Assembly: GCA_938045585.1 (NCBI GenBank)
Contig: CALIAU010000011.1
Span: 248,001-312,000 of the forward strand
DNA length: 64,000 nt
Reading direction: 5' to 3'
Source of the DNA: an uncultured Saprospiraceae bacterium
GTDB taxonomy: Bacteria; Bacteroidota; Bacteroidia; Chitinophagales; Saprospiraceae
A program made the translations under genes and the position numbers. The notes below the pieces were generated by a model, which had not been told where the DNA came from, searched no databases, and saw only the letters and a list, made by a program, of their open reading frames with translations. Within the stretch, counting starts at the first letter, position 1; the number at the start of each line of letters is the position of its first letter. This document shows, piece after piece, positions 1 to 6,161 of the stretch.

Positions 1-551
1 TCTATGGTTTGATGTACTTTTCCTTCTTTTATATACTTCTCAGTAGATCCACACCAGACCATTACCAAACGATTACATTTGTTGTCTTTTTGGAACTTCT
101 TGATGTCACGCATTAACTGCTTAGCTAAGTCCATTTTGTCCTTACCTTTCTTAACATGCTTTCCATCTAACTTAGATACATAGGCTTTGTCAAATACAGC
201 CTTCATTGGTTTGATCTTAGAAAGTTGTGGCTTTAATTTTTTTAATGTTGCTTCATCTAGAACTTTTGCGTTCATAGCAGCTTCATAGACATTATCCTTG
301 TAAAGGTCCCATCCACCAAATGCAACTTTCTTTAAGTCTTGAATTGGAATCACATCTTTGATTAAAGGCTTATTTACCTTTGTTCTTTTTCCAATTCTGA
401 TACGTCCCATTTGAGTTAGGGCACCAGTTGGAGAAGCAATGCCTTTATTAGCAGCAACTACACCTGCAATAAATGTTGTGGCAACTGCACCCATTCCAGG
501 TAACAATATTCCTAATTTACCAACTGGTTTTTTGATTAAAGTTTTTCCCAT
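1..551 (-). CDS. ino1: Inositol-3-phosphate synthase (5' part; gene runs off the left edge)
   Basis: This is a myo-inositol-1-phosphate synthase, which converts glucose-6-phosphate to inositol-3-phosphate using NAD. The visible 183 residues start at the ATG at 551. They contain the N-terminal dinucleotide-binding stretch (LLPGMGAVATT, near residues 17-27), a GGWDLY motif near residue 80 and VMVWCGSTEKY near residue 166, the pattern of bacterial Ino1-type synthases. The C-terminal half lies outside the window. It sits 12 bases downstream of the NAD-dependent reductase gene, on the same strand, as the last visible member of the lipid operon. The neighbouring CDP-alcohol phosphotransferase would use its product to make an inositol lipid. 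Identity is confident; operon membership is inferred from spacing and strand. Confidence 0.92.
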   Translation of the reverse strand, partial: MGKTLIKKPVGKLGILLPGMGAVATTFIAGVVAANKGIASPTGALTQMGRIRIGKRTKVNKPLIKDVIPIQDLKKVAFGGWDLYKDNVYEAAMNAKVLDEATLKKLKPQLSKIKPMKAVFDKAYVSKLDGKHVKKGKDKMDLAKQLMRDIKKFQKDNKCNRLVMVWCGSTEKYIKEGKVHQTI

Positions 552-563
552 AATTGTCTTTTG

Positions 564-1553
564 TTAAAGATTTCTTTTTTCAATATTCCATTTAATTGTC
601 TCGACAATTCCTTCTTCAAGATAGAATTTGGGTGAAAAGCCGAGGTCCTCAACGAGAGGGCTAATATCACATTCCCAACTTTTAGATGCAAGCTCGTTTA
701 GCTTATCTGTATTGAACATAGAGGGTTGCTTTAGGAGTTTACTGTATATCTCAGAGAAACCTGCTGCAATGCGCGCTATTTTCATTGGGAGCACAAATTT
801 ATAAGTTTTTTTACCAAGCACTCCCTTTATGAGAGAATTATAATACTCAGAGCTGTATTTTTTACCATCTGAGGCAAAGTATGCACGTCTTGAGTGCTTA
901 GAACTCAGTGATTTATATATAATTCGCACCAAATCGTGAATATAAATAAAACTGAGCTGTTGGTCCTTATTTGCAATATATAGCTCTAAACCTCTTTTTA
1001 TGTTTTTATATAAAAGGCTAAGTTCCCTTTCTCTTGGTCCATATATTATACTTGGTCTGAATGTTATATAATTTAAATCTTTAAACAGTTCTAGAAATTG
1101 CTCTGCCTGCAGTTTGCTCTTGCCATATTCTGTTATTGGGTGGGGAATACTATCATTTCTAATAATACCATTGACCTGGAAGTCAGCTGGACCGTAACTT
1201 GCTAAACTGCTGATGAATATAAATTTTTCTGGAAGGACCTGTTCCTCATGAAGAAGTTTTATAAGCTTTCTTGTATATCCCGAATTTACCTTATAATAAC
1301 TTTCTTTGTGTATAGATTTCGTTAAACCAGCAGCATGAATAATGTAGTCATATTGTTCATGCTTTAAAATATCTCTTAGTCGATCTTCTTTGTCAAAATC
1401 AATGTATTTAATAATAGGAGAACAATTATTTAAATTAGATAGATCGCTATTTTTACGTACAGCGGCGTGCGTTTCATATCCTAGCTGCATTCCTTGTTCA
1501 ACTAAGTGACTTCCCAAAAAACCATTGGCCCCAGTAATTAGAATCTTTTTCAT
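564..1553 (-). CDS. NAD-dependent epimerase/reductase, putative ceramide reductase (CerR-like)
   Basis: This is an extended short-chain dehydrogenase of 329 residues. It has an N-terminal Rossmann motif (GANGFLG, residues 8-14) and a YxxxK catalytic pair at Tyr143/Lys147 within TEYGKSK. The family includes 3-beta-HSD-like and epimerase enzymes. Its ATG overlaps the stop of the GNAT-like gene by 4 bases (ATGA), so the two are probably translationally coupled. In Caulobacter, a reductase of this superfamily (CerR) reduces the 3-oxo group during ceramide synthesis, and genome context beside serine palmitoyltransferase makes that the best guess here. The sequence alone shows only an NAD(P)-dependent sugar- or steroid-type reductase; the substrate is inferred. 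Confidence 0.82.
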   Translation of the reverse strand: MKKILITGANGFLGSHLVEQGMQLGYETHAAVRKNSDLSNLNNCSPIIKYIDFDKEDRLRDILKHEQYDYIIHAAGLTKSIHKESYYKVNSGYTRKLIKLLHEEQVLPEKFIFISSLASYGPADFQVNGIIRNDSIPHPITEYGKSKLQAEQFLELFKDLNYITFRPSIIYGPRERELSLLYKNIKRGLELYIANKDQQLSFIYIHDLVRIIYKSLSSKHSRRAYFASDGKKYSSEYYNSLIKGVLGKKTYKFVLPMKIARIAAGFSEIYSKLLKQPSMFNTDKLNELASKSWECDISPLVEDLGFSPKFYLEEGIVETIKWNIEKRNL

Positions 1554-2680
1554 GCATCCACATTGTACGAAAATAGCCTATAAGTCTTGTATAACTCACC
1601 ATTCAAATTTTCTGCAGCTTTTTTCATCATGGTGTTGGTTTCTAAAACCCAAGATGCTTCTCCGCCCACAATTCCACGCTTTTTAGCCTCTTGAATTGTT
1701 TTGGAAAAGAAGATAGCCTCAATACCCTTCTTTCTATATGCATTTGTAACTCCCATCGCTAAAATGCGAATGAACTTAGTTTTCTTTTTTCTAAATAGAA
1801 GTGAAAGTAAGTTAAATGGTAGAAGTTTTCCATTTTTAAACTTTCGTGTAATTTCATTTATGTTTGGTAAGGAGATAGAAAAACCTATTGGTTCTCCCTT
1901 GTGTTCTGCAATAAAGGCAAAGTCTTCATCCAGTAAGAGTTTTAAATTATTTGCTAAATATTCAAATTCATTATCTGTAAATGGTACAAAACCCCAATTG
2001 CTTTCCCATGCTGCGTTATAGATTGCTTTAATTTTTTTGGCCTCAGCTTCAAAGGCATGTAAGCGTACCTTACGAACCTCAATGTTTTGTTTAGCCAATC
2101 GATCTTCTATTAAATTTGAAATGCGAACAGATTTTTCAGATACTTTGTCTGTCTCTATCATGTAAGCAAATAAATCCATTTCTTTTTCGAGACCTAATTT
2201 ATGAATGATCTCTTGGTAATAAGGAAAATTATAAGTCATCATAATAAAAGGAGAGGAATCATACCCCTCTATTAAGTATCCTGCAGTTTCATTTGTCGTA
2301 AAATTAGTGGGACCTATAATTTTATTGTACCCAAATTGAGCAAGCCAGTCTAATGCAGCATTGAATAATGCTTCAGCTACCTCAAAAGATTCAATAAAAT
2401 CAAAGAAGCCAAAAAATCCAACATGACTGTTGTGATAACTGTTATATCTGGGATTACTTATTGCAGAAATCCGACCAACAATTTTATTGTTTTGGTAGGC
2501 CAGAAAGTGTGCTATTTTCCCGTACTTATAAAATGGGAATTTAACAGTATCAAACATCTCTTTTTGAGCAATATATAGTTCAGGAACGTAAAACGGATCA
2601 TCCCGATATAAGTCATGCTGAAACTGGATGAACTGTTTTACGTCTCCGTTTGTATTGACTCTCTTAACTTCTATATGCAT
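1550..2680 (-). CDS. GNAT-fold acyltransferase, putative bacterial ceramide synthase
   Basis: This is a protein of 376 residues from the acyl-CoA N-acyltransferase superfamily. A GNAT-like region lies around residues 40-200 (HFLAYQNNKIVGRISAI, GFFDFIES, IIGPTNFTTNE), followed by a second acyltransferase-like half. I choose the ATG at 2680 rather than an in-frame ATG at 2710. It has AAGGAAT directly upstream, and the protein then begins MHIEVKRV, a usual start for this family. The gene overlaps the serine palmitoyltransferase stop by 17 bases and the next gene by 4. In Caulobacter the ceramide synthase bCerS is an acyltransferase of this superfamily. Acylation of the long-chain base is therefore the likely role, but this is inferred from context. 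Confidence 0.75.
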   Translation of the reverse strand: MHIEVKRVNTNGDVKQFIQFQHDLYRDDPFYVPELYIAQKEMFDTVKFPFYKYGKIAHFLAYQNNKIVGRISAISNPRYNSYHNSHVGFFGFFDFIESFEVAEALFNAALDWLAQFGYNKIIGPTNFTTNETAGYLIEGYDSSPFIMMTYNFPYYQEIIHKLGLEKEMDLFAYMIETDKVSEKSVRISNLIEDRLAKQNIEVRKVRLHAFEAEAKKIKAIYNAAWESNWGFVPFTDNEFEYLANNLKLLLDEDFAFIAEHKGEPIGFSISLPNINEITRKFKNGKLLPFNLLSLLFRKKKTKFIRILAMGVTNAYRKKGIEAIFFSKTIQEAKKRGIVGGEASWVLETNTMMKKAAENLNGELYKTYRLFSYNVDA

Positions 2681-3875
2681 ATTCCTTTTTTTGGATATCA
2701 AGAATGCCAAGTTGAAGAGCGATAGTGTGAATCTTGGCTATTGATTCAGCAATTTGATCCTTTGTATGTGTAGCCATCAGTGAGTATCTAATCATGGAAG
2801 AACTACTTGGTACTGCAGGAGAAACTACTGGATTCACGAAAACACCTGCAGCAAGTAATCGTTTTGTGAGTTCAAAGGTTTTGTAGTCATCACCGATGAT
2901 AATAGGAATGATAGGAGTTTCTGAATGTCCTGTGTTGAACCCGAGCTCAGTTAAAAATTGTTTTGCAAAATATGTATTTGACCAAAGCGCTTGAATGCGT
3001 TCAGGTTCCTCTTCAATAATATCTAGAGCTGCAATAACGCTGGCTGCATTTGAAGGTGCTAGGCTAGCACTAAATATGAGGGAGCGTGCATTGTGTTTGA
3101 GGTAATTTATTGTGTCCTTATCCGAAGCAATAAAACCACCTATTGAAGCAAGTGATTTACTGAATGTGCCCATGAGTAAGTCCACTTTATCTTGTATTCT
3201 AAAATGATGACCCGTGCCCTTGCCACCCTTGCCCATTACACCCAAACCATGAGCGTCATCAACCATTATGTTAGCATTATACTGTTTTGCAAGAGCTACA
3301 ATCTGAGGTAGCTTGGCTAAATCACCTTCCATACTAAAAACACCGTCAACTACAATTAACTTTATTTTATCAGCTGGAAGTTTAGAAAGTAGCTTTTCTA
3401 ATGCAACCATATCGTTGTGTTTGTACTTCAGTGTTTTTGCAAATGACAATCTTGCTCCATCAATAATGCAAGCGTGATCTAAATCGTCTAAAATTATATA
3501 ATCATGGCGACCTGGAATAGAAGAGATAACACCCAAGTTAACTTGAAAACCTGTACTGAAAACTAAGGCAGCTTCTTTCTCTACATAAGAAGCAAGTCTT
3601 TCTTCTAATTCTAAGTGTACATCCAGAGTTCCATTTAAAAATCGGGAACCTGCACAGCCTGTTCCATACTTATCAATAGCAGCTTTTGCAGCCTCTTTGA
3701 GTTTAGGGTGGTTTGTAAGACCTAAATAACTATTGGACCCAAACATGAGCACTTCTTTTCCATTTATTCTTACTACTGTGTCTTGTTCTGACTCAATAGT
3801 TCTAAAGTAAGGATATAAACCCATTTGTTGTATGCGCTGTGGCGTGTCGTAGGATTGCATTTTTTTCTTTAGCAT
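2664..3875 (-). CDS. spt: Serine palmitoyltransferase (alpha-oxoamine synthase family)
   Basis: This is a PLP enzyme of 403 residues that condenses serine with a long-chain acyl-CoA to 3-ketosphinganine, the first step of sphingolipid synthesis. Visible hallmarks are GSNSYLGL (46-53), TGCAGSRFLNGT (72-83), His134 expected to stack on PLP, DDAHG (206-210) and the Schiff-base lysine Lys240 in TFSKSLAS. The family also contains 8-amino-7-oxononanoate synthase (BioF) and glycine C-acetyltransferase. The TGCAGSRFLNG segment and the neighbouring ceramide-type genes favour SPT. A second in-frame ATG six codons in (3860) is an alternative start. It lies 147 bases downstream of the AUR1-like gene and overlaps the acyltransferase gene. 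Confidence 0.88.
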   Translation of the reverse strand: MLKKKMQSYDTPQRIQQMGLYPYFRTIESEQDTVVRINGKEVLMFGSNSYLGLTNHPKLKEAAKAAIDKYGTGCAGSRFLNGTLDVHLELEERLASYVEKEAALVFSTGFQVNLGVISSIPGRHDYIILDDLDHACIIDGARLSFAKTLKYKHNDMVALEKLLSKLPADKIKLIVVDGVFSMEGDLAKLPQIVALAKQYNANIMVDDAHGLGVMGKGGKGTGHHFRIQDKVDLLMGTFSKSLASIGGFIASDKDTINYLKHNARSLIFSASLAPSNAASVIAALDIIEEEPERIQALWSNTYFAKQFLTELGFNTGHSETPIIPIIIGDDYKTFELTKRLLAAGVFVNPVVSPAVPSSSSMIRYSLMATHTKDQIAESIAKIHTIALQLGILDIQKKEYAYRS

Positions 3876-4022
3876 AATTGATTATTTAATCCAAAACTCA
3901 AGCTAAATGAAATATAAAATAGAAATTATATGTGAAATTGCCGAGGTTGATTTCATAAAGTATAAATCAAAATACTTCACTAGCCAATAGGTTTACAAAT
4001 CGTAAATTCGAGTAATAGCAGT

Positions 4023-4949
4023 TTACTTGATTGAAAAATTGGGTGTAATACTTGAACCCTTGCTTTTAAGTATCCACTCACTGAGCATTATACCTAAAAC
4101 ACCACAGATTATTCCTAAGATTACATCAAGCATATAATGGTGTGTAGTATAGATAGCTGCAAACCAAATTCCCACCATGCTCGTAAGAAATACTAAGCTT
4201 AATATGCGGTTTTTGTTTTTAAAACTATAGTAAGAAAGGATCATAGGATAAGCTGCATGTAAAGAAGGGACTGCTCCAAACACGTTTGCACTTTGGCTAT
4301 ACATATTTGTAAAGATTGGGTAGCCAATAATTTGATCAAAGCTAGCGAGTCCTGCAGCTTGTCCTAGGGTCGATTTTATAATTTCTGCTCCGTACTCCAA
4401 ATAGTACCAAGGAGGTGCAGCAGGATAAAATATATAACCAAGGAAGCCGATAAGATTTGTTATAAGGAAGCTCATCCAAAAATTAAAAACAAGTGTGTGC
4501 TTTCTTTGCAGAAACATAGATATCCCAAACAGGATTGGGAACGGTATCCAGCTTAAATAAAATGCACCAGATAAGAAATCAAGAATACTATGACGATGCT
4601 CCAAAAAATATTCGTTTAAAGAGACGGAATTCCCTTCATGCATAAGTCCAAATAGTGATTTGTCTAAGGCATACAAGTCCTCAGAATGGATTTCAAATAG
4701 ATTGAGATCATGCAAAATGCGTAAGGAATCATATAGGATAAGAAAAAGTATAAAAGGAGAAAAACTAAAAAGAAATTTTCTGGTACTACTATTCAAAAAG
4801 TATAGTAATGCTATCAGTAAAAACAGTCCTATGTTATTTTGTTGAATACCAATAATGAAAACGAACCATAAGAAGTATACAAGCGAAAAAATGAAAAAGG
4901 GTGAAAGGGAGCTTTTTGAAAAACGATGGAAGCTAGTAGAGGTAGGCAT
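4023..4949 (-). CDS. AUR1-like PAP2 membrane protein, probable inositol phosphorylceramide synthase
   Basis: This is a polytopic membrane protein of 308 residues with about six or more hydrophobic segments. It carries the AUR1-type signature APPW (178-181), the PSLHAAYP motif with His231, and HHYMLD with His270/His271 and Asp275. These are the residues of the His-His-Asp active site in lipid phosphotransferases. The classic KxxxxxxRP motif of PAP2 phosphatases is not apparent, which favours transfer of a head group onto ceramide over simple hydrolysis. It lies 8 bases after the DUF4833-like gene and upstream of the ceramide genes. By context it should move inositol phosphate from phosphatidylinositol to ceramide at the membrane. 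Specificity is inferred. Confidence 0.82.
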   Translation of the reverse strand: MPTSTSFHRFSKSSLSPFFIFSLVYFLWFVFIIGIQQNNIGLFLLIALLYFLNSSTRKFLFSFSPFILFLILYDSLRILHDLNLFEIHSEDLYALDKSLFGLMHEGNSVSLNEYFLEHRHSILDFLSGAFYLSWIPFPILFGISMFLQRKHTLVFNFWMSFLITNLIGFLGYIFYPAAPPWYYLEYGAEIIKSTLGQAAGLASFDQIIGYPIFTNMYSQSANVFGAVPSLHAAYPMILSYYSFKNKNRILSLVFLTSMVGIWFAAIYTTHHYMLDVILGIICGVLGIMLSEWILKSKGSSITPNFSIK

Positions 4950-4957
4950 GCAATAGG

Positions 4958-5470
4958 CTAGAAGTATGTTTTTTCATAAATAAATTTCTCTGTCTCTTTG
5001 TCTTTGCCGTAGAGTTCATAAAATCTTCCTAAAGGAAAAATTCCTGAAAAATCTAAGTCAACATAGATCTTGTTTAATATAGCATCTTTTCCTTGGATTT
5101 TGCAGACGACTTTAAAACCATCATCTTCCCTAACAAGAAATAAGTTAAGTTTGTTATATGCCTTAAATTGAAAACTAAATGCATCCGAGTTTATAATCTG
5201 TGCATCATACCCATAAGCAAGATTTGTTTGTAAGACATTGAGTTCTTGAATTTGTCCCTGTTCTTCAAAACGCTTCCAGTATATACGAAGAGGTTTGTGC
5301 ATGTTTATATCTCCATGCACATTAGTATTTAAGGAATACACGACTGTGTTCTGGTCTAGATTCCTTTGTATATAAAAGACGTAATTTTCTTTTGCTTCAA
5401 GGCTGGGATAATTTTGCGGTAAAGCAAAAGTTGTATTATTAAATTTTACTTGATTATACTTTTTTGCCAT
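4958..5470 (-). CDS. DUF4833-like protein of unknown function in the lipid operon
   Basis: This protein of 170 residues has no signal peptide and no obvious membrane segment, and it is rich in beta-strand-like hydrophobic/polar alternation. Features include FYIQRNLDQNTVVYSLN near residues 32-48, RIYWKRFEEQG near 62-72 and DLDFSGIFPLG near 138-148. I believe it belongs to the DUF4833 group, which I recall beside inositol-lipid genes of gut Bacteroides; this is from memory. The function is unknown. Its ATG overlaps the end of the CDP-alcohol phosphotransferase by 17 bases, so it is probably translationally coupled to it. A role in lipid binding, assembly or phosphatase activity is possible but not shown by the sequence. 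Confidence 0.7.
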   Translation of the reverse strand: MAKKYNQVKFNNTTFALPQNYPSLEAKENYVFYIQRNLDQNTVVYSLNTNVHGDINMHKPLRIYWKRFEEQGQIQELNVLQTNLAYGYDAQIINSDAFSFQFKAYNKLNLFLVREDDGFKVVCKIQGKDAILNKIYVDLDFSGIFPLGRFYELYGKDKETEKFIYEKTYF

Positions 5471-6161
5471 TTTCCATTACTTTTTTAGCATGTAGTAAAC
5501 GTTTTATTGCAGTATGATTTGCAAGGATAGCAACTATGAAAATCGGGAAGGTGAAAAAAGTGATTGTTTCAAACAATGGAAATGGTAGCCAATTTACATC
5601 AATCTTGTAATCACCTCCTAAAAATGAGGAGATGATACCACATAGGCCAGCAGCTGTTCCAATAGTAATAATGCGTTCTGGTCTTTGCATCAAACCTACA
5701 CTTGCATTTACCCCAAGTCCTTCTGCTCGTGCACGTGTATAACTCACCATAATAGATCCTACCATAGCTAGAAAGGCAAATAAAGAACTTAGGAAATAAT
5801 CATTTTCCACAAGGTAGTAGCAGATGCCGAGAAACATTATCAATTCGCTATATCTATCTAGTACGGAGTCAAACAGTGCACCATAATCACTGGCAAGGTT
5901 GCCTACGCGTGCCATACGTCCATCAACCATGTCCATAAGACCAGCTAGTAAAATGATAAAACCTGCCCAAAAGACATAAATGTGATTGTCTCTAATTCCT
6001 TTTTCGGCACCATAAATTAGAATAACAGTTGCTAAGATGTTAAGCAATAAACCAAACCCTGTTACCATGTTTGGAGTTACTCCAATTCTTATCAAAAACC
6101 GAATAGAGGGATCTAATACACTATAGGCAAAATTTTGACCTGTTTTTTTCCACGCACACAT
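5454..6161 (-). CDS. CDP-alcohol phosphatidyltransferase, probable phosphatidylinositol-phosphate synthase
   Basis: This is an integral membrane enzyme of 235 residues with about five or six hydrophobic helices. The CDP-alcohol phosphotransferase signature is complete: Asp77, Asp80, Gly81, Ala84, Arg85, Gly94, Asp98 and Asp102 (D-x2-DG-x2-AR-x8-G-x3-D-x3-D). The family makes phospholipids by joining CDP-diacylglycerol to an alcohol. An inositol-phosphate synthase gene in the same locus suggests inositol phosphate as the acceptor, giving phosphatidylinositol phosphate. It is the first gene of the minus-strand lipid run and diverges from mqnA across only 74 bases, so both promoters must lie in that short stretch. 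The exact alcohol substrate is inferred. Confidence 0.85.
   Translation of the reverse strand: MCAWKKTGQNFAYSVLDPSIRFLIRIGVTPNMVTGFGLLLNILATVILIYGAEKGIRDNHIYVFWAGFIILLAGLMDMVDGRMARVGNLASDYGALFDSVLDRYSELIMFLGICYYLVENDYFLSSLFAFLAMVGSIMVSYTRARAEGLGVNASVGLMQRPERIITIGTAAGLCGIISSFLGGDYKIDVNWLPFPLFETITFFTFPIFIVAILANHTAIKRLLHAKKVMENGKKV

Follow-up and report, generated by a model that had tools for sequence, protein, structure and literature searches.

Can one short stretch of a bacterial chromosome hold a route to inositol phosphorylceramide (IPC), ceramide and head group alike? The question is raised by the first 6,161 nucleotides of a 64,000-nucleotide stretch (the window) of contig CALIAU010000011.1 from an uncultured Saprospiraceae bacterium. 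The original prediction placed there seven overlapping or nearly touching minus-strand genes joining ceramide synthesis to inositol-phosphate head-group synthesis, with a PgpA-like phosphatase that might lie past the left edge. The IPC pathway itself is already known. From gene families, motifs, order and conservation, all directly observed, we consider it very probable that the genes found here together encode IPC synthesis, their reactions being assigned by analogy with characterised relatives.

A run of ten genes

All seven genes were present at their predicted positions, and Pfam puts each in the family named for it. Leftward extension of the locus (L002) gave a run of ten genes, not seven: left of position 1 lie the expected PgpA-like gene (L002 9758-10225), a GtrA-like gene (L002 9357-9767) and, at the end of the run, a YegS/DAGK lipid kinase gene (L002 8470-9348). 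The whole set spans <9 kb. The predicted close packing holds at eight of the nine junctions (between -17 and +12 nt) and fails between the genes for the AUR1-like protein and serine palmitoyltransferase (SPT), which are 147 nt apart. Family scores and synteny rule out chance or mis-annotation as an explanation of the run.

The 147-nt gap makes two transcripts possible and, together with the swapped order of the gene blocks in Mucilaginibacter relative to L002, suggests two transcription blocks. A scan of the sequence found no excess of promoter-like (34 versus 38.1 in shuffles) or terminator-like sites (5 versus 5.5), although the sigma-70 consensus that it used says little for Bacteroidota. 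The "single regulated pathway" first proposed is thus supported only in part.

Head-group and ceramide genes

The inositol branch would begin with myo-inositol-phosphate synthase (MIPS), whose N-terminal part occupies positions 1..551 (minus strand), the C-terminal remainder continuing past the left edge (complete gene L002 10238-11551, 437 aa). The full protein matches PF07994 (330.9 bits) and PF01658 (114 bits), both above cut-off, and its top solved chain is 7nwr (536 bits), the structure of BT_1526 (PMC9246714). The CDP-alcohol phosphotransferase (5454..6161, minus strand) scores 57.9 bits with PF01066 against a cut-off of 22, carries the DxxDGxxAR..G..D..D signature at residues 77-102, and has the PI(P) synthases 5d92, 5d91 and 6h53 as its top solved chains in a sequence search. 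Since its score of 323.5 bits with NF052561 (PIPSynBT1523) is under the equivalog cut-off of 350, we name it PIP-synthase-like and do not put it in the equivalog. It is predicted to be a BT_1523-like phosphatidylinositol-phosphate synthase, which would use CDP-diacylglycerol to make phosphatidylinositol phosphate (PIP). The PgpA-like enzyme, of the BT_1525 type, would then dephosphorylate PIP to phosphatidylinositol (PI). Its PgpA domain is clear (PF04608, 150.7 bits), it is the sole PF04608 gene found in the genome (assembly 97.96% complete), and it scores 78 bits against 226 with the phosphatidylglycerophosphatase A model PRK11068, a score that hints at PIP, rather than phosphatidylglycerophosphate, as the substrate.

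The AUR1-like PAP2 protein (4023..4949, minus strand; PF14378 (PAP2_3), 76.5 bits) is predicted to be a BT_1522-like IPC synthase, which would transfer phosphoinositol from PI to dihydroceramide and release diacylglycerol. It reaches 280.9 bits over residues 22-295 with NF052609 (phosphoinositol dihydroceramide synthase), under the cut-off of 480, so we call it AUR1-like and leave it outside the equivalog. PAP2 enzymes are functionally diverse and this score is far below the cut-off, two points that favour a different reading: ceramide and PI might be made side by side while the PAP2 protein either moves another head group, such as ethanolamine phosphate or mannose phosphate, or works instead as a phosphatase, the product not being IPC. 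We give this very little chance, given the similarity to the AUR1 chains 9vj3/9ivc (E about 1e-16, phmmer), which includes a PAAPPWY stretch and the aligned PSLH and HHYxxD motifs, and given that MIPS and the AUR1-like gene occur together in 36 of the 46 full-length loci among the best 80 of 231 SPT matches. In an 11-row alignment (A4), H231 is invariant, and H270 and D275 are each present in at least 90% of the rows. For the head-group reactions that we predict on the way to IPC, knock-outs in B. thetaiotaomicron support those of BT_1522, 1523, 1525 and 1526 (PMC8791184, PMC9246714), with PMC8791184 reporting that a BT1525 deletion was not obtained.

The ceramide branch starts from SPT (2664..3875, minus strand), which would condense serine with an acyl thioester. 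It scores 664 bits with NF047600 (Bacteroidota serine palmitoyltransferase), past the curated cut-off of 640, has the serine palmitoyltransferase 3a2b as its top solved chain (508 bits), and carries the DDAHG and TFSKSL motifs. The next gene (1550..2680, minus strand; PF00583, 38 bits) starts at an ATG at 2680, where the open-reading-frame list had a TTG at 2710. The closest PDB structures to its predicted structure (pLDDT 92.6) are tandem GNATs; the PDB sequence search returned no credible relative, only eight weak matches to unrelated proteins (best E 0.0007). This GNAT would add the second acyl chain, and an extended SDR (564..1553, minus strand; PF01370, 116 bits), with GxxGxxG at 8 and YGKSK (YxxxK) at 143, would reduce the ketone to yield dihydroceramide. 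All relatives of the SDR in the PDB sequence search at E<=1e-8 are epimerase-type. Neither protein matched a bCerS or CerR model among the curated models; we predict them to be the ceramide synthase bCerS and the 3-keto reductase CerR by context and co-occurrence, to which the GNAT adds its tandem fold. As a reference for either enzyme, the Methylocystis SPT locus (the one alphaproteobacterial record examined out of 103 plasmid records matched) proved useless, being polyketide-type.

Co-occurrence across genomes bears on whether these two genes instead serve another acyl-lipid pathway (e.g. N-acyl amino acid lipids), the true ceramide synthase and reductase lying elsewhere. The unmatched bCerS and CerR models would fit that reading, as would eight Mucilaginibacter loci that keep SPT-GNAT-MIPS without the SDR, two genomes (G419, G270) with no SDR match anywhere at E 1e-30, and two others (G002, G022) with GNAT scores of 314 and 221 bits despite best SPT-model scores no higher than those of other alpha-oxoamine synthases. 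We judge it quite improbable nonetheless. In a draw of genomes across the phylum, a GNAT orthologue (at least 364 bits) was present in all 15 SPT-positive genomes and adjoined SPT in 11; an SDR orthologue (at least 338 bits) was present in 12 and stood beside SPT-GNAT in eight. With the same 364-bit GNAT threshold, chosen after data inspection, a Saprospiraceae subset split into 8/8 SPT-positive genomes with the gene and 0/29 others. The SPT-GNAT-SDR trio also occurs with no inositol gene detected, in three full-length loci (L044, L051, L052) and three shorter stretches (L043, L053, L055), and in three genomes (G246, G415, G061) with no MIPS match anywhere. Moreover, clustering of spt, bcerS and cerR is reported to be common in bacteria (PMC11334938).

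Conservation and accessory genes

Synteny was compared in 80 named loci, a Mucilaginibacter-rich set made up of the top 80 among 231 SPT matches. The exact ten-gene order is found in L002 and recurs in five of these loci (L042, L045, L046, L047, L050), and all six core genes are present in 41; as 34 of the 80 loci are <21 kb, genes missing there may lie past the contig end. Among the 26 Saprospiraceae with both SPT and MIPS, 15 have them within 4 kb (relatedness uncorrected), while simple arithmetic gives about 0.2% for a pair placed at random in a genome of 4.3 Mb; the other 11 have the two genes on separate contigs, and in three of these SPT stands at a contig end. In the phylum draw, the two genes lie within 2.4 kb in 7 of the 12 genomes having both. 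Neither this closeness nor the ten-gene order is due to chance. No MIPS match was obtained in 12 of the 38 SPT-positive Saprospiraceae, nor in 3 of the 15 genomes with SPT drawn across the phylum. These missing matches, and the place of MIPS on another contig in part of the genomes, count against the IPC reading, as do the NCBIfam cut-offs missed by the AUR1-like and PIP-synthase-like proteins and the unmatched bCerS and CerR models.

Three uncharacterised partners can be named in the run: the GtrA-like protein, the lipid kinase and the DUF4833 protein. Their roles are the most speculative parts of our proposal, and for the first we suggest that of a putative lipid translocator. The DUF4833 protein (4958..5470, minus strand; PF16117, 113 bits) has a nearly all-beta predicted structure (pLDDT 87.2). 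A sequence search of the PDB gave no relative at E<=10, and Foldseek against the PDB gave 644 matches at E<=10 and none at E<=0.001; structural alignment (VIA-align) reached a best Z of 3.3, a value that establishes the fold neither as new nor as shared with another protein. A literature search of open-licence papers found no mention of DUF4833. The gene tracks SPT in Saprospiraceae, occurring in 22/38 SPT-positive and 0/28 SPT-negative genomes (relatedness uncorrected), the latter hand-picked from 112 below the cut-off for best scores resembling those of other alpha-oxoamine synthases, with intermediates left out. In 8 of 30 carriers no copy lies within 11 kb of SPT. An inositol-specific role is unsupported: SPT-positive Saprospiraceae carry the gene in 18/26 MIPS-positive and 4/12 MIPS-negative genomes (Fisher p 0.075, relatedness uncorrected), and four loci (L043, L055 and the full-length L044 and L052) combine it with ceramide genes and no detected inositol gene. 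We propose an accessory role in sphingolipid handling.

The lipid kinase is the sole PF00781 gene found in the genome. It could recycle the diacylglycerol released by IPC synthesis, converting it to phosphatidic acid and thus back towards CDP-diacylglycerol. This idea is weakened by loci without a detected inositol gene in which the kinase follows SPT-GNAT-SDR (L040, L049 and L048, the only full-length one) or SPT-SDR (L039). These loci would rather suit a sphingolipid kinase acting on ceramide or dihydrosphingosine, the locus then also making phosphorylated sphingolipids, as would the divergent DAGK-family gene beside SPT in Parabacteroides and the Caulobacter CpgB (LCB5/DAG kinase domain), which phosphorylates ceramide and diacylglycerol in vitro (PMC10331486). 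However, the closest solved relatives are diacylglycerol kinase or BmrU chains (96 bits; YegS 48 bits), and no other kinase of the family was found in the genome for diacylglycerol. We regard a sphingolipid kinase, which is compatible with IPC synthesis, as quite possible but short of probable.

A literature search of open-licence papers found no report of the one-locus form, although an earlier description may exist. Tentatively, and with more doubt than conviction, we propose a conserved one-locus IPC module in Saprospirales, Chitinophagales and Sphingobacteriales, with a diacylglycerol-recycling kinase in Saprospiraceae and DUF4833 as a hitherto unrecognised protein dedicated to sphingolipids and exported in certain lineages, with a fold for which no solved relative was found, perhaps a carrier or scaffold for the new lipid. 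The locus connects candidate genes for the ceramide synthase and the reductase of Bacteroidota with a defined head-group pathway and predicts fungus-type inositol sphingolipids in many free-living Bacteroidota. As its ten genes span so little DNA, the pathway could be transferred to E. coli as a single fragment and its steps tested singly.

Comparison with known systems

The predicted product has been reported in a free-living member of the phylum, as ceramide phosphoryl-myo-inositol from Sphingobacterium spiritivorum (Naka 2003, cited in PMC9246714), a report of lipid chemistry. Bacteroides vulgatus and Prevotella have a putative alternative cluster for inositol lipids (PMC9246714), which likewise implies a MIPS-linked route to inositol dihydroceramide, but its NTP transferase and HAD hydrolase are absent from the ten genes. 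Set side by side by gene type, Caulobacter crescentus spt/bcerS/cerR (PMC11087976, PMC10331486) likewise offers an SPT, an acyltransferase and a reductase, and its kinase CpgB acts on ceramide (PMC10331486). Its head group is phosphoglycerate, in contrast to the inositol phosphate predicted here, and its CerR is periplasmic (PMC11087976), whereas the N-terminus of our SDR has nothing signal-peptide-like, as judged by eye and hydropathy, a difference that may count against the IPC reading.

In sphingolipid-producing Bacteroidota the three ceramide genes are said not to be close together (PMC11334938, citing its ref. 38). This is true for four genomes of two other families (f30, f31), where the genes are scattered, but not for most of the Saprospiraceae, Mucilaginibacter and Segetibacter loci examined. 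The contrast first drawn with Bacteroides, where ceramide and inositol genes sit apart, proved right: in B. thetaiotaomicron, SPT (BT0870) lies away from BT1522-1526 (PMC8791184), and BT_0972, the reductase, lies elsewhere rather than in a cluster with SPT (PMC9278070). All five gene types of BT1522-1526 (AUR1-like PAP2, CDP-alcohol phosphotransferase, GtrA-like, PgpA-like and MIPS; PMC8791184, PMC9246714) are present in the Saprospiraceae run, in two blocks with the ceramide core between them; to these the run adds SPT, GNAT, SDR, DUF4833 and the lipid kinase.

Gene content of the locus and predicted pathway

The genes considered here belong to a minus-strand run of ten, encoding in order a PIP-synthase-like CDP-alcohol phosphotransferase, a DUF4833 protein, an AUR1-like PAP2 protein, serine palmitoyltransferase (SPT), a GNAT protein (candidate bCerS-like ceramide synthase), an SDR (candidate CerR-like 3-keto reductase), myo-inositol-phosphate synthase (MIPS), a PgpA-like phosphatase, a GtrA-like protein, and a YegS/DAGK lipid kinase. 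Successive junctions measure −17, 8, 147, −17, −4, 12, 12, −10, and 8 nt, and long reading frames of opposite direction flank the run on either side. The window itself corresponds to G000:C11:248001-312000. A phosphatase had been predicted beyond the left edge of the window and is indeed present, since the stretch including this leftward sequence (L002) carries the PgpA-like gene 12 nt downstream of MIPS. Coordinates on L002 are those of the window plus 11000. A second alpha-oxoamine synthase is encoded left of the window, ~26 kb from SPT (G000:C11:223747-224901); its protein shares 38% identity with SPT, scores under the SPT cut-off and is perhaps a 2-amino-3-ketobutyrate ligase.

SPT obtained 664 bits against the curated Bacteroidota SPT model, passing its cut-off of 640, and 508 bits against the solved serine palmitoyltransferase 3a2b. 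MIPS reached 536 bits against the solved chain 7nwr, the Bacteroides thetaiotaomicron enzyme BT_1526 according to PMC9246714. The PAP2 protein matched AUR1 chains (E ~1e-16) in an alignment that takes in the PAAPPWY, PSLH, and HHYxxD stretches; its score with the curated model for phosphoinositol dihydroceramide synthase, 281, is under the cut-off of 480. The CDP-alcohol phosphotransferase, in which we found the DxxDGxxAR...D...D signature, reached 323.5 with the BT_1523 model, whose cut-off is 350. Sequence search of the PDB retrieved no credible relative of the GNAT protein; its predicted structure (pLDDT 92.6) resembles tandem GNAT enzymes. The SDR carries GxxGxxG and YxxxK motifs.

The locus is real and conserved, and it is predicted to serve the synthesis of inositol phosphorylceramide (IPC). 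After characterised relatives, the inositol branch would lead from inositol phosphate through phosphatidylinositol (PI) phosphate to PI, and the ceramide branch from 3-ketosphinganine through N-acylation to reduction. Phosphoinositol would be moved from PI onto dihydroceramide, freeing diacylglycerol, which the lipid kinase could turn back into phosphatidic acid.

Distribution and variants of the locus

Among the best 80 of 231 SPT matches from one scan, the same strand as SPT carried a GNAT gene of this kind in 72 loci, the SDR in 60, AUR1-like in 59, PIP synthase in 56, MIPS in 53, DUF4833 in 30, GtrA in 28, PgpA in 25, and the lipid kinase in 10. The six core genes were complete in 41 of these best 80, MIPS and AUR1-like occurred together in 36 of the 46 full-length loci among them, and five (L042, L045, L046, L047, and L050) repeated the window's order exactly across all ten genes. 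Many Mucilaginibacter loci and one from Chitinophagaceae (L093) have swapped blocks, SPT-GNAT-SDR-MIPS-(PgpA-GtrA)-...-PIP synthase-(DUF4833)-AUR1, in agreement with the 147-nt gap that separates the blocks. Segetibacter loci L070, L075, and L082 lack MIPS and retain the rest. In the NCBI taxonomy, Mucilaginibacter belongs to Sphingobacteriales, Segetibacter to Chitinophagales, and Saprospiraceae to Saprospirales. For the six core proteins, pairwise distances across 42 loci correlated at 0.76–0.92, which is what shared descent alone would give and, taken alone, no proof of linkage.

Genomes drawn regardless of synteny showed that the union of SPT and MIPS is common, not universal. An even draw across the phylum gave 375 genomes, of which 15 passed the SPT cut-off; 12 of these had MIPS, within 2.4 kb of SPT in seven (G000, the window's genome, G309, G148, G156, G419, G317, and G270) and apart in five (by 0.81 Mb in G091; on different contigs in G294, G286, G407, and G403). 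All 15 possessed a GNAT orthologue (at least 364 bits), adjoining SPT in 11, and 12 an SDR orthologue (at least 338 bits); the SPT-GNAT-SDR trio was complete in eight. Families f30 and f31 contributed four genomes, in which SPT, GNAT, SDR, and MIPS were not adjacent; f30 is taken to be Bacteroidaceae or near because the MIPS of its member G294 scores 753 bits against BT_1526. Among 150 Saprospiraceae genomes, 38 passed the SPT cut-off, 26 with MIPS and 12 without; in 15 of the 26, MIPS shared the strand of SPT and followed it within 4 kb, and in eight it lay on another contig, the other three being undecidable with SPT at a contig end.

Eight Mucilaginibacter loci (L072, L081, L083, L086, L090, L097, L106, and L109) have SPT-GNAT-MIPS without the SDR, and G419, G317, and G270, whose SPT-MIPS gap is short, resemble them. 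An SDR search at E 1e-30 gave no match in G419 and G270 and one of 109 bits in G317. In such lineages a different reductase may act, or the ceramides may stay in the keto form. A fatty acid hydroxylase (PF04116), possibly acting on ceramide, adjoins AUR1-like or SPT at L075:18489-19109, L073:19003-19626, and L044:9262-9894; the window's run has none. The 848-aa product of L075:14662-17208, encoded between GtrA and PIP synthase, belongs to DUF5686 and contains a carboxypeptidase-regulatory-like domain, as does BT_1527, which PMC9246714 names as a neighbour near the B. thetaiotaomicron cluster. In Saprospirales bacterium GYS_P2D, the genes immediately after SPT-GNAT-SDR (L044:13404-14764) encode an ECF sigma factor and an anti-sigma factor, which possibly control the sphingolipid genes. 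The 343-aa protein at L064:7161-8192, between PIP synthase and AUR1-like, matches carotene hydroxylase and desaturase models weakly (best 30.6 bits) and is a possible lipid-tailoring enzyme.

Uncharacterised partners: DUF4833, lipid kinase and GtrA-like protein

Three uncharacterised partners in the locus are promising. DUF4833 occurred in 22 of 38 SPT-positive versus 0 of 28 hand-picked SPT-negative Saprospiraceae (Fisher p 1.3e-7, ignoring relatedness), in 8 of 14 SPT-positive genomes from other families, and in none of 14 control genomes. It lay within 11 kb of SPT in 22 of 30 carriers and not in the other eight; its presence in 4 of 12 MIPS-negative, SPT-positive Saprospiraceae shows that it is not confined to MIPS carriers. 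Apart from one short helix, the predicted structure (pLDDT 87.2) consists almost wholly of beta strands, and it had no significant match in the PDB. By eye, Mucilaginibacter proteins mostly have hydrophobic, signal-peptide-like N-termini, and the window's protein has none. We read DUF4833 as a putative sphingolipid-linked accessory protein.

The return of diacylglycerol to phosphatidic acid fits the observation that the lipid kinase is the sole PF00781 gene found in the window's genome. A sphingolipid kinase is nevertheless a serious rival, because the gene accompanies SPT-GNAT-SDR in L040, L048, and L049 and SPT-SDR in L039, loci with no inositol gene detected, and because the Parabacteroides SPT also neighbours a DAGK-family gene. 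In Parabacteroides distasonis, this diacylglycerol kinase family gene (L130:6825-7796) is divergent from and adjoins SPT, and the annotation within 8 kb lists neither a GNAT nor an epimerase-type SDR nor any inositol lipid gene.

Published knock-outs of the GtrA-like gene in B. thetaiotaomicron disagree: one lowered IPC and raised PI (PMC8791184), whereas the other made no difference by TLC (PMC9246714). If it acted as a translocator, the GtrA-like protein would fill the flippase gap pointed out in PMC11087976.

Comparison with characterised systems

Mutants described in PMC8791184 and PMC9246714 show that B. thetaiotaomicron makes PI and IPC by means of BT_1522, 1523, 1525, and 1526, the BT1525 deletion having been obtained in the latter study and not in the former. 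SPT (BT0870) lies away from BT_1522-1526, bearing out the original statement that ceramide genes lie apart from the inositol cluster in Bacteroides. The BT_0972 reductase is likewise described as not clustered with SPT (PMC9278070), and the three ceramide genes are said to be not close in Bacteroidota (PMC11334938); the list alongside that statement does not include Saprospiraceae, Mucilaginibacter, or Segetibacter. The chemistry is known; for the gene organisation, we found neither a description nor a report of a united ceramide and inositol locus in the open-licence literature. In B. thetaiotaomicron SPT lies apart from the inositol cluster, whereas the ten-gene run holds both together.
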